Source: Chiridota heheva (taxonomy: Eukaryota > Echinodermata > Holothuroidea > Apodida > Chiridotidae). From it: a stretch of DNA of 64,000 bases. Location of the stretch: NCBI GenBank assembly GCA_020152595.1, contig JAIGNY010002010.1, forward strand, positions 1 through 64,000, in the 5' to 3' direction. Below the pieces are notes generated by a model. It did not search any database. It was given only the letters and a program-made list of their open reading frames with translations, and was not told the DNA's origin. This document shows positions 11,251-31,439 of the stretch, piece after piece (positions within the stretch are counted from its first letter, which is position 1; the number at the start of each line of letters is the position of its first letter). The position numbers and the translations under genes are program-made.

Positions 11251-11824
11251 ACTGGGCTCCACAGCTGCAGGCCGTGCTACAAATTCACAACAAAGAGATA
11301 CAAACACAAATGAACAAGGAACGAGCACAGACAAACCCTCTATAGTAGACTTACAACACCAGTCATTTCTACATGGATAAAACAGGCCTTCAACTTGAAT
11401 ATCTCCTTAACCAAATAAGATATTGAAGTAGTTTCTTCACCATTTTGTTTCTCTTCACTTCCTCTTTCATGTAAAATAAACGTGCTTGACAACTGAACTA
11501 ATCCTTTAAAGTCCGGTCTATATACACACAGTAGTAAAAGTATATGGGAAGTAGGGTGCATTATGGAAACATGCATCAAATTAAATTAATTTAAATTTAA
11601 AATCTTTAATTATAAAGAAGTGAGTCTTTCGAATTGAATTAGTCCTTGACTGTTTCTGTGCCTCTATCTGCCCACAAAAAACAAGTATTGATTAAAAATC
11701 TATGGACAGGTGTCATATAACAACAATTTTAACCATGAAAATAGTTTTAAAAAAGTAACATATTCGGTTAAAAAAGCGACCATTTTACTGCTGCATTTTG
11801 AATTTTCAGGCCTTATTATAATAA

Positions 11825-12235
11825 GTTCTTTATCCGGCTCCCCTGCCCCTCTCTGCCCCACTTGCAACATCAATCTCCCCATCAAGCATATATTCTTAAC
11901 CTGTCCCCTCTACCAGAAATCCAGATCTCTTCTCTCCTCACTCTTTTCAATCTCGGACCGATTCGAAAACAATTCTTCCTCAAACATCATCAACTTACTC
12001 CGCAACAACAACCTCTTCCACCACATATAATCTCCTCCCCTTCTACACCTAACCTTATACACCCCTTTCTTTTCACCAAATTTTTCTCCCATATTCAGCT
12101 TTTCCCCTTTATCTCCCTTACAAACCTTCCATCTCCTCACTATCTTTACTATTACACCATTATTTATTTGCACCCTCTTGGCACATTTGACTCTGACTGT
12201 CGCGGTGCCGTTAAACATCAACAAACCAAACTAAA
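11825..12235 (+). mobile_element. 5'-truncated non-LTR retrotransposon tail
   Basis: An insertion absent from the matching position of the other arm near 31,050. On the plus strand, around 11,842-11,905, it encodes a CX2CX7HX4C knuckle (starting LCPTC, ending LTCPLYQ). That is typical of the C-terminus downstream of RT or RNase H in non-LTR elements of the I, R1 or jockey group. A short untranslated tail follows. Flanks show an imperfect target duplication: CCTTATTATAATAA on the left and CCTTATAATGAATTA on the right. The frame is interrupted, so it is dead. Confidence 0.75.
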
Positions 12236-12715
12236 CCTTATAATGAATTATGCAAATTTATAGAAATTGAGACATAGTATCAGGTTAACATATTGTTTTT
12301 TAATCCTCCAACAACGTTTTAAATCTCCATCATACCTTTAATAAATTTTAACAGGAGAAAATATTCTTGATTTTCAGTGACTGACATTTTGGAGAGAAAG
12401 CATAACTTTAAAGATATTCAGCTGTCTTATATACATCAACACTTTTGCATATATTTTAATTATATTTTATTTTTGCATATATTTTAATAAGCCATGTATC
12501 GGAAACAAACTACGGCTGCTTTTGACATAATCAAAGGATATTCTGTTCAGCATTTAAGAATCTTTGTGGTGAATACAACATACACATCTAAATCAGGTAT
12601 TTGTTCTATAACACATGCAAAGATCCAACATGCTATCATTCATAGTTTGTATAGTTAGTATTTTTTGCTGTTGAACATCTTCATAGGTTCTTTAATATGG
12701 AATGTAGAATGCAAT

Positions 12716-13400
12716 GACATTTCGGTCATCAGGTCGTAGATGGTGGGATGGCATGTGGATCACAGGTGGGGTGGCATGCGAATCATAGGTGGGATGGCAT
12801 GTGTATCATACGTGGGGTGGCATGTGGATCATAGGTGGGATGGCATGTGGGTTATAGGTGGGATGGGTGGCATATGGGTCATAGGTAAGATGGCATTCGG
12901 TCAGGTGGGTGGTAGGTAGGTGGAATGGTGGGGTAGCTAAGATGGGTGGGTAATAGGCGGAATGGCATATGGGGCGTAGCTGAGATGACACGTGGGTCAT
13001 AGATGGGATGGTATGTGCGTCATAGATGGGATGGCATATAGATACAGTTCGGGGGAGGTATTGGACAAAGGGTGGGTTTGTGTATAAGAATTTGGGTGAG
13101 ATAAAATGTAAAACATAGTGTAGAATGGCATATGGCACATATAATGTGATGGCACACATGATACATCACATTGGACAAGTGATGGAGGGAGAGTTGGGTG
13201 GCCTATATAGTTCATAAGATGGAATGGCATATGGGGCATAGGGTGGGACCGTGTCATATGGGAATTGATTGGGATGGAAGGTAAAGAGTGGGATTGCGTA
13301 TAATGGAATATCATATGGGACATCGCGTGAGTTGGTATATGGGACGAAGTGGGATGGCATGTGTGAGATGGTGGATATGATGGCGAACATGTAGAAAACA
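12716..13400 (-). repeat. Degenerate ~23/24-bp satellite, left arm
   Basis: Units such as GGTGGGATGGCATGTGGATC are the reverse complement of the right-arm satellite half-units. The copies vary much more here than in the right arm, and the block becomes ragged after 13,040. Open frames read through it on both strands only because stops are rare in the motif. Confidence 0.85.
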
Positions 13401-13900
13401 GAGTGGGTTCTGAGGCACAGCATTGTATGGAAAATGGATGGGATGGAATGCGAGGCACAGTATTGTATGGCATATGGGAAATGGATGAGATGGAATGCAA
13501 GGCACAATATTGTATGGCATATGGGAAATGGATGAGATGGAATGCGAGGCACATGGCATATAGGAAATGGATATGGCATATAGGAAATGGATGGATGGAA
13601 TGCGAGGCAAGTATTGCATGGCAGATGGGAAATGGATGGGATGGAAGAATGTGATGGCACAGAAATGGATCAGATTGATAGTGGCATGGCATATGGGAAA
13701 TGGATCAGAAATGGATGCACAGATGGATATGGAAAATGGATGAGAGCAAGTATTGTATGGCATATGGGAAATGGATCAGATGGAATGTGAGGCACAGTAT
13801 TGTATGGCATATGGGAAATGGATGAGATGGAATGTGATGCACAGTATTTTATGGCATGTGGAAAATGGATGAGATGGAATGAGGACATAAGATGGGGTTA
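13400..13900 (-). repeat. 47-bp tandem repeat, left arm version
   Basis: About ten copies of a 47-bp unit containing GCATATGGGAAATGGATGAG and GAGGCACAGTATTGTAT, some shortened. It has the same length and can be aligned with the 47-bp right-arm satellite, but it is a different, locally homogenised variant. Confidence 0.85.
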
Positions 13901-28700: not shown

Positions 28701-29485
28701 ATTATGATCCACATGCCATCCCACCTATGACCCACATGCCACCCAACATTATGACCCACATGCCACCCAATATTATGATCCATATGTCATCCCACCTATG
28801 ACCCACATGCCACCCAACATTATGATCCACATGTCATCCCACCTATGACCCACATGCCACCCAACATTATGATCCATGTCATCCATGCCATCCCACCTAT
28901 GACCCACATGCCACCCAACATTATGACCCACATGCCACCCAATATTATGATCCATATGTCATCCCACCTATGACCCACATGCCACCCAACGTTATGATTC
29001 ACATGTCATCCCACCTATGACCCACATGCCACCCAACATTATGACCCACATGCCACCCAATATTATGATCCATATGTCATCCCACCTATGACCCACATGC
29101 CACCCAACGTTATGATTCACATGTCATCCCACCTATGACACATGCCACCCAACATTATGACCCACATGCCACCCATATTATGATCCATATGTCATCCCAC
29201 CTATGACCCACATGCCACCCAACGTTATGATCCATATGTCATCCCACCTATGACCCACATGCCACCCAACATTATGACCCACATGTCATCCCACCTATGA
29301 CCCACATGCCACCCAACATTATGATTCACATGTCATCCCACTTATGAACCACATGCACATTTTGAATAATAGCATGTCGGGATTTACATTTTAACATGTG
29401 TTTTAAAAGAAATACCTTATTCAACTGTATATGGACAGATAGAGATGTTATATTCTTCACAAAGCTCCTTAAATGTTGAACAGAA

Positions 29486-30458
29486 CAGTGGCGTAGGAAC
29501 CGGAATCAGGGGAATTACCCCCCCCCTCCCCCCCCCCTTTTCCCTCCCCCTCTCCCTCTTTAAATGATAAAGGTATAACGAATTGATTTTGAAGAATCAG
29601 ATTCAGATTCCATGGCATTTTTTTCCGAAAATCTTCAATTTTCGAGAAACCTCCTTCAATTTTCGAAACGTTTTTTCTTCATTTTCGAGAATTTATTTTC
29701 AATTTTGTTAAATTTCCTTCCATGTTCCTGGAATGTTCTTCATTTTCAAGATAACTTTTTCACTTTAGGAAATTTACCTAAATTCTCGTGAAATTTGCTT
29801 AAATTTTCGGAAAAAAATCTCTTTCATGTTCGAAAAAATGATCTTCATTTTCCGGAAATTTCCTTCATTTTCAGGAATTTTTCATCATTGCTTCCAATTT
29901 TCGTGAAAAATGTTTCAACTTATACGTGAAATATCCTTCAATTTCGATAATTTTTCTTCATCCTCGGGAATTTTGCGTCAATTCTTGGTGCTTCAATTTT
30001 CGTGAAATTTCCTTTATTTTTGGGAATTTTTCATCATTGCTTCCAATTTTCGTGAAAATGTATCAACTTATACGTGAGATGTCCTTCATTTTCGATAATT
30101 TTTCTTCATGTTCGGGAATTTTGCATCAATTCTGGTGCTTCAATTTTTGTGAAATTTCGTTCATTTTGGAAAATTTGTCTCCCTATTTGGGAAATTTTCA
30201 TCAATTTTCGTAAAATTTCCTTTATTTTCGTGAATTTTTCTTCATTTTCGTGAAATTTGCTTCAATTTTTGTGAAATTTCCTTCATTTTCTGGAAATTTT
30301 ACCACTATTTTCGATCACAACCCCTTCCGATTACCCCCTCTTCCCTACGTTTTTACAAATAGTGATAAGAGACCCGTACATTTGTGTAGGTCTGTTGGGA
30401 CAAAAATTAAATCAAAAATCAAATCCCCGTTAATTTCAAAAATCTACCTACGCCACTG
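29486..30458. mobile_element. Non-autonomous DNA transposon with minisatellite interior
   Basis: Bounded by CAGTGGCGTAGG at the left and CCTACGCCACTG at the right (12-bp perfect terminal repeats). It is flanked by the direct repeat CAGAA at 29,481-29,485 and 30,459-30,463. The matching place in the left arm (12,541-12,545) has a single TTCTG, the reverse complement, with no insert. The interior from about 29,630 to 30,310 is a degenerate repeat of TTTTCGTGAAATTTCCTTCA type. No transposase frame. The termini resemble hAT-type MITEs, but a 5-bp duplication is shorter than the usual 8. Confidence 0.85.
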
Positions 30459-30527
30459 CAGAATTATCATTAGATTATGTCAAAAGCACCCATAGTTTCC
30501 GAAATGTGGCTAATTATGCAAAAGTTT

Positions 30528-30840
30528 ATATATATATATATATATATATATATATATATATATATATATATATATATATATATATATATATATATATATA
30601 TATATATATATATATATATATATATATATATATATATATATATATATATATATATATATATATATACATATATATATATATATATATATATATATATATA
30701 TATATATATATATATATATATATATATATATATATATATATATATATATATATATATATATATATATATATATATATATATATATATATATATATATATA
30801 TATATATATATATATATATATATATATATATATATATATA
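30528..30840. repeat. (AT)n microsatellite
   Basis: About 310 bp of TA dinucleotides with one TACATA interruption at 30,665. It lies within the right arm; the corresponding left-arm position (about 12,450) has only short TATATTTTAAT stretches. Confidence 0.99.
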
Positions 30841-31439
30841 AACACTTTATATACACTGAATATCTCTTTTTAAGTTATGCTTTCTCTCTTAAATGTCAGT
30901 CACTGAAAATCAAGACTTTTTTCTTCTGCTAAATTTGAATAAGGGGGGTATAATGGAGATTCAAAACGTTGTTGGAGGATTAGAAAACAGTAAGGTAACT
31001 TGTTACTATGTCTCAATTTCTATCAAATTTGCGTAATTTATCATAATAAGGCCTGAAAATTTAAAATGCAGCAGTAAAATGGTCGCTTTTTTAACCGAAT
31101 ATGTTACTTTTTGTTGTTGTTGCTATTTTCATGGTTGATGTTGTTGAAATATGACACTGTCCATAGATTTTAAATCAATACTTTTTTTTTTTTTTTGTGG
31201 GCAGGTACAGGCATACCGAAACAGTCGGGAAGTAATTCGGGGGGCTTACATTTTTAAAATTAAAGATTTTAAATTTAATTTTTATTAAATTTGATGCATG
31301 TTCCCAATACGTTTACTGTGCCATATAGACGAAAAGATTGCAGGAAATGATACTCGTTTTGACAATAAAAGAAATACACCGGGTACCTATTTTTCAGAGG
31401 GGTGATCCACACTGTCCCTCTTCTCTATGCTCTATATTT

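Follow-up and report, generated by a model that had tools for sequence, protein, structure and literature searches.

Sequence and question

Bases 1 to 64,000 of contig C2001 in the Chiridota heheva genome assembly (1.10 Gb, 3,744 contigs), referred to as the window, contain a mirrored region in which two arms rich in tandem repeats face each other around a core of minisatellites, which raises the question of whether this structure arose at this locus or is shared with other parts of the genome. The mirrored region forms the centre of a worn copy of a dispersed, apparently non-coding element of about 40 kb, whose usual order in the family is outer left part, left arm, minisatellite core, right arm and right segment (coordinates in Table 1).

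Inverted pairing of the arms

A first-pass annotation had proposed inverted pairing between 11.5-15.8 kb and 20.5-31.4 kb, and this was confirmed by alignments and by a test of 12-mer order. Inverted alignments gave four blocks (77-85%) occurring in reverse order between the two stretches: 11564-11827 with 31306-31035 (81%), 12238-12421 with 31046-30856 (85%), 14028-14918 with 22068-21227 (81%) and 15086-15767 with 21191-20533 (77%). Single-copy 12-mers pairing in inverted orientation between the arms numbered 380, with 335 in the longest strictly reverse-ordered set, compared with a mean of 34.7 and a maximum of 42 in 1000 shuffles of 12-mer order; the 45 out of order are as expected within satellite-like DNA, and no single-copy 12-mer pair was found in direct orientation. 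This test rules out that simple repeats paired by chance, as the annotation had already argued.

Two of the three outer landmarks put forward as paired words match exactly in inverted orientation, namely AATCTATGGACAG (11697, reverse complement at 31157) and AAAAAAGCGACCATTTTACTG (11770, reverse complement at 31072); the third, GCTGCTTTTGACATAATC at 12515, lacks an exact inverted partner, and 12517-12532 pairs with 30473-30488 interrupted by a mismatch. The edges first proposed (11510..31360) fit the strongest pairing, and fainter inverted traces occur beyond them, for example 1-265 with 35563-35290 (75%). The core, described as made almost only of minisatellites, is mostly so, with some non-repeated sequence at its edges.

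A dispersed family with a common order of parts

Genome searches were performed with 40 candidates scored per probe, so that copy numbers are lower bounds and biased to close relatives, and matches on one contig within 60 kb were merged into one place. Long stretches were read for contigs C91 (17 kb) and C2342 (52.6 kb), the order of parts in the other copies being taken from probes or from 10-kb pieces. Many close copies (85-92%) were found with a probe of the left arm (11400-13400), and many copies also with probes of the right arm (20000-21900), the right segment (36600-38750) and the end of this segment (42200-43700), as well as with two probes located outside the left arm and taken from other copies. 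Pooled, the six probes gave 240 matches, corresponding to at least 132 places on 123 contigs of the window's own assembly. Places with two or more matches were colinear on one strand in the order of the window in 53 cases out of 62, and the relative orientation of the arms was that of the window at 12 of the 14 places where both arm probes matched. C91 is colinear with the window through the left arm, the core and the start of the right arm (89.7% from left arm to core, 89.6% over the spacer and right arm); positions 8750-8907 of the window are not present in it.

Individual places vary in arrangement. In C3105 and C1350 the right-arm probe and the remainder of the unit lie on different strands, which recombination between inverted arms could produce; left-side probes face each other in C2342, C2067 and C1689; the right-arm probe is doubled in C88 and C1449; and neighbouring units occur in C1879 and in C91 (near 33-65 kb).

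Divergence of the arms and age of the duplication

Arms were compared on two arm segments, counting substitutions only. Between the window and C91, left arms differ by 3.3% and 1.9% and right arms by 4.3% and 4.2%, compared with left-to-right differences of 12.0% and 13.6% within the window and of 9.2% and 11.7% within C91. Since same-side arms differ by 1.9-4.3% and opposite arms by 9-14%, the inverted duplication predates the separation of the copies. The old inverted duplication of the first-pass annotation is thus retained as a single event older than the present copies, and its placing at this locus is not, the same order being repeated in C91 and at many other places. The piece at 11828-12237, which presumably resembles the 3' part of a long interspersed nuclear element (LINE) and whose C91 counterpart gave only a weak zf-RVT match (E 0.13), is found in the left arm only, in C91 likewise, and would have arrived between the inverted duplication and the separation of the copies.

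An old inverted duplication of satellite-rich DNA confined to this locus, resembling other loci only by a shared satellite, would agree with the inverted pairing, which is real, and with the presence of the 22-24-bp satellite type of the arms in a dispersed repeat starting sharply at 63286-63287. It is hardly credible, as dispersal of the arms in fixed order extends to their non-satellite parts and to the segments on either flank, as C91 repeats the whole arm-core-arm order, and as it is contradicted by left arms of two copies being closer to each other than the left and right arms of one copy. An event private to the window locus is ruled out by the same-side arm divergence together with the colinear dispersed copies. 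Because the same order is found in C91 and at many places, and because same-side arms are the closer ones, a mis-join confined to the window locus is also unlikely.

C91 departs from the majority sequence of 21 copies at 2 of 3077 sites, C1350 does so at 17 of 3072, and the remaining 19 copies differ from it by 1.7-4.5%; omission of CpG sites left this result unchanged. These two may represent an unchanged source copy; collapse or polishing in the assembly would look the same. A more ambitious reading, in which the unit is a selfish, giant, non-coding mobile element that has a source almost unchanged over at least 3 kb of non-coding sequence and copies that decayed, repeatedly forms new palindromes from its own arm and has its long non-coding architecture under selection, is considered distinctly doubtful.

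Palindromes in other copies

C2342 is a left-left palindrome with arms of about 12 kb (91-93%) around a core of about 8 kb, whose minisatellite is GC-rich and different from those of the window. The inverted left arm there joins the right segment directly, in place of the right arm, and at this one joint a stretch of 8 nt, bar one mismatch, is common to the two source sequences (by eye), which would fit microhomology-guided template switching, as weak evidence. C2067 looks like a second left-left palindrome, its left-arm copies facing each other across about 18 kb, and C1689 is a possible third. In a 21-row tree, of which only 2 of 18 inner branches are well supported, the facing arms of C2342 (100/99) and those of C2067 (100/100) are sisters, and their distances are 4.9% and 2.5% respectively, against a mean of 6.4% for all pairs. 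Strong recent homogenisation of the C2342 arms is not supported, since these are 4.9% apart although sisters. Arm duplication has recurred at least once in the family, as in C2342.

Unequal growth of the arms

Very different growth of the two arms, as first suggested, is borne out by the 47-bp arrays, by a duplicated LINE-like piece and by probe distances. The 47-bp arrays occupy most of 22.1-29.4 kb of the window and include two copies of a fragment presumed to resemble a LINE, without a Pfam match, whose 99.2% identity over 920 columns points to recent tandem duplication. The distance from left-arm to right-arm probe ranges from 4.1 to 27.1 kb at 12 places (6.6 kb in the window), and that from right-arm to right-segment probe is 14.7 kb in the window versus 5.9-9.8 kb at 11 other places. 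On the left side, an insertion of 7.3 kb at (TA)n separates sequences that adjoin in C2342. The window copy is most likely degraded, with an over-expanded right arm.

Size, ends and flanks of the unit

In C1350 the probes of the outer left part and right end span 39.6 kb. A probe located 1.2 kb beyond the outer-left probe is repeated over 199 of its 250 bases, with 15 of its 39 other matches (best 40 scored) within 10 kb to the left of a unit match on the same strand, and a probe 4.9 kb beyond the outer-left probe has one match only; the right end falls within a CA-rich repeat some 0.1 kb beyond the last probe. From these values the unit is estimated at 41-45 kb in C1350. The contig begins at base 1 of the window, so that the further-left part of the unit is missing here, and the window copy ends at 43546. 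A right terminus at 43546, where matches stop sharply, was rejected, all 20 fetched copies running past it, as was a left terminus at position 8231 of C2342, where this copy is cut and where the sequence outside is common to 12 other fetched copies. Among 20 right ends, 18 reach the CA-rich stretch and 10 have an apparent small inserted element behind it (by eye). Telomere repeats (at least 3 tandem TTAGGG) were absent from the 52.6 kb of C2342.

Such a unit could have spread as segmental duplications, by recombination or repair and without a transposition enzyme. This would suit the great length of the units and their lack of coding sequence in the parts read, the truncation of ends at differing points in some copies, the neighbouring or repeated units of C1879 and C1449, and the proneness to rearrangement that array-rich DNA with inverted arms would have. 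Order and orientation are nevertheless kept at the large majority of multi-match places, and duplication of host flank with the unit was not seen with the two flank probes used, one in C1350 and one in the window (46300-47900, 2.8 kb beyond the unit), each with a single match. A spread of this kind is therefore regarded as unlikely.

Coding capacity, RNA and conservation

The Pfam cut-off was reached by none of the 14 open reading frames (ORFs) scanned, a selection of those present (six from the window, eight from C91, C2342 and the window); in the same ORFs, which derive from the parts read, no match to PolB or to the retroviral-like integrase of Polinton/Maverick elements was obtained. The Rfam search (7 sources, 116 kb) and the tRNA search of the window were empty. 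Among 19 copies aligned to C91, 48 of 50 blocks of 200 bp have identities of 0.89-0.97, the other two 0.83 and 0.86.

A host locus or a family of long non-coding RNA genes, in place of a mobile element, would be in line with an exon-like piece common to the copies and bounded by TTTTTTCAG and AAAG/GTAATG, and with CCAAT- and GC-box-like words in the outer left part (both by eye). Such words are insufficient for a gene; the substitution profile of the 19 copies has no block that stands out, and Rfam gave no match, which makes this explanation very unlikely.

Nature of the element and comparison with known systems

The window probably holds a copy, now degraded, of a giant foldback-like mobile element that is non-autonomous and has no recognised coding capacity. 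The ancestral copy would have gained an inverted duplication of its own left part around a minisatellite core, by fold-back or template switching, and would then have moved as a non-autonomous unit by means of machinery encoded elsewhere. Arrays may later have grown or shrunk separately in each copy, giving unequal arms, and the same type of duplication would have recurred when the right arm of C2342 was replaced by an inverted left arm.

Several points weigh against this interpretation. No left terminus, on which a comparison of target-site duplications (TSDs) would depend, was found in the sequence examined, and no transposase in the ORFs scanned; transposition itself is therefore inferred. 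Right ends mostly fall in CA-rich repeats that mask the exact end, comparison of the final 300 bp on the right with the leftmost sequence examined gave no significant inverted match, and the arms, with weak outer inverted traces only, are not demonstrated as terminal. Nine of the 62 multi-match places are not colinear. An ORF of 223 amino acids, the longest in the initial 7.3 kb of C91, exceeds those of all 200 shuffles (maximum 165); it crosses a 22-bp array, and none of its Pfam matches comes near the cut-off.

Foldback elements include Drosophila FB, Tetris and, named by reference, sea urchin TU; Tetris has inverted arms with tandem repeats, non-coding copies and satellite growth in the arms, and its terminal inverted repeats (TIRs) reach 1,735 bp, are terminal and are accompanied by TSDs (PMC4079207). 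Like foldback elements, the unit has long inverted arms built largely of tandem repeats and dispersed copies without recognised coding; unlike those of Tetris, its arms measure several kb, occupy the interior of a unit of about 41-45 kb and are 9-14% diverged, with no TSD found and the left terminus not reached. The unit most likely works like a foldback element, and its membership would depend on terminal arms and TSDs.

In Galileo (P superfamily) and its recombinant-TIR copies, arm tandem repeats vary from arm to arm and the inverted repeats are lengthened with internal sequence, for which recombination or conversion between the arms is the explanation given; the TIRs shown measure about 0.9-1.3 kb, and near-complete copies carry a transposase (PMC3573991). 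C2342 is comparable to such copies in this respect, and the unit differs from Galileo by the lack of a transposase in the ORFs scanned. Giant eukaryotic transposons comprise Polinton/Maverick, Teratorn, Terminons and large Helitrons, of which Polintons and Terminons reach 40 kb, and internal coding regions above 20 kb are considered in their review (PMC6431247). The unit belongs to the same size class and differs from them in that no coding family was recognised in it. Helitrons have 5'-TC and 3'-CTRR ends with a hairpin, and Rep/Hel in autonomous members.

For human inverted duplications a fold-back mechanism has been proposed (PMC3907307), and the arms of human Y palindromes are more than 99.9% identical through gene conversion (PMC3723533). 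The unit likewise holds a large inverted duplication, and differs from the latter in being dispersed and in having diverged arms (9-14% in the window and C91, 4.0-5.2% in C2342).

Feature map and neighbouring sequences

Table 1. Parts of the window copy and sequences inserted in it (window coordinates)
Feature	Position	Strand	Evidence
Outer left part of unit	1..883	+	1-421 and 438-883 match C2342 11246-11675 and 12108-12550, 88.6%
Other sequence (7.3 kb) inserted at (TA)n	884..8220	.	883 and 8221 adjacent in C2342 (12550/12537)
110-bp minisatellite within the insertion	2161-3495	.	Tandem array found
Unit part outside strongly paired left arm	8221..11519	+	Common to fetched copies
Left inverted arm	11520..15767	+	Inverted matches to 31306-20533; close copies elsewhere at 85-92%
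Left-arm-only piece, presumably LINE 3'-part-like	11828..12237	+	Gap in arm pairing
Minisatellite core	16467..19922	+	Same three array types, same order, in C91
Core 13-mer array	16467-17373
Core GCGCGCGTA-type array	17403-18086
Core 15-mer array	18138-19922
Non-repeated spacer, right edge of core	19938..20532	+	Common to C91, 89.6%
Right inverted arm, much enlarged	20533..31340	-	Inverted relative to left arm; right-arm probe copies elsewhere
47-bp minisatellite arrays with two presumed LINE-like fragment copies	22087..29356	+	Fragments at 23132-24056 and about 24826-25741
Outer remnant of right arm	35290..36024	-	Inverted match to C2342 left arm 11505-10818, 73%
Right segment of unit	36015..43546	+	Probes 36600-38750 and 42200-43700 have many copies

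The start of another dispersed satellite-bearing repeat occupies 63286-64000, with 39 other scored matches (75-84%; best 40 scored), nearly all beginning at about 63286-63287, which gives it a sharp edge. The unit holds a 66% similar inverted stretch at 9876-10301, and the satellites of its arms are of the same 22-24-bp type as this repeat, which, being older, may be their source. A short dispersed piece occurs at 8756-8873 and, inverted and 88% alike, at 52643-52768; it is absent from C91 at that site, and words like it are present at the right ends of two other copies (L046 and L048, by eye). Positions 19996-20240 and 61420-61665 are similar, start near GGGGGCGCTCGTTT and end near TTTGGTCTAGTGC-CCCTTTAA (by eye), and perhaps correspond to a small inverted-repeat transposon. 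Beyond the unit, ORFs of 570 and 342 amino acids on the minus strand (46271-47983 and 58562-59590) had no Pfam match at E 0.01 and are probably host genes, the former lying in single-copy DNA.

Significance

No dispersed, non-coding unit of about 40 kb with inverted arms was found in the parts of the literature searched, a statement that holds for those searches, and the arms exceed in length those of the foldback elements used for comparison. The unit marks trouble spots of the assembly, 10 of the 19 fetched left-arm places being no more than 60 kb from the end of a contig. If the unit does move as a transposon, it shows that about 40 kb of mirror-image, satellite-packed DNA can be mobilised in one piece although it carries no genes. 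Its copies differ in state, some keeping the usual order, others forming a left-left palindrome or having the right arm on the other strand, with the arm probes 4 to 27 kb apart, and they constitute a natural series for the formation and decay of palindromes and for the growth of minisatellites.

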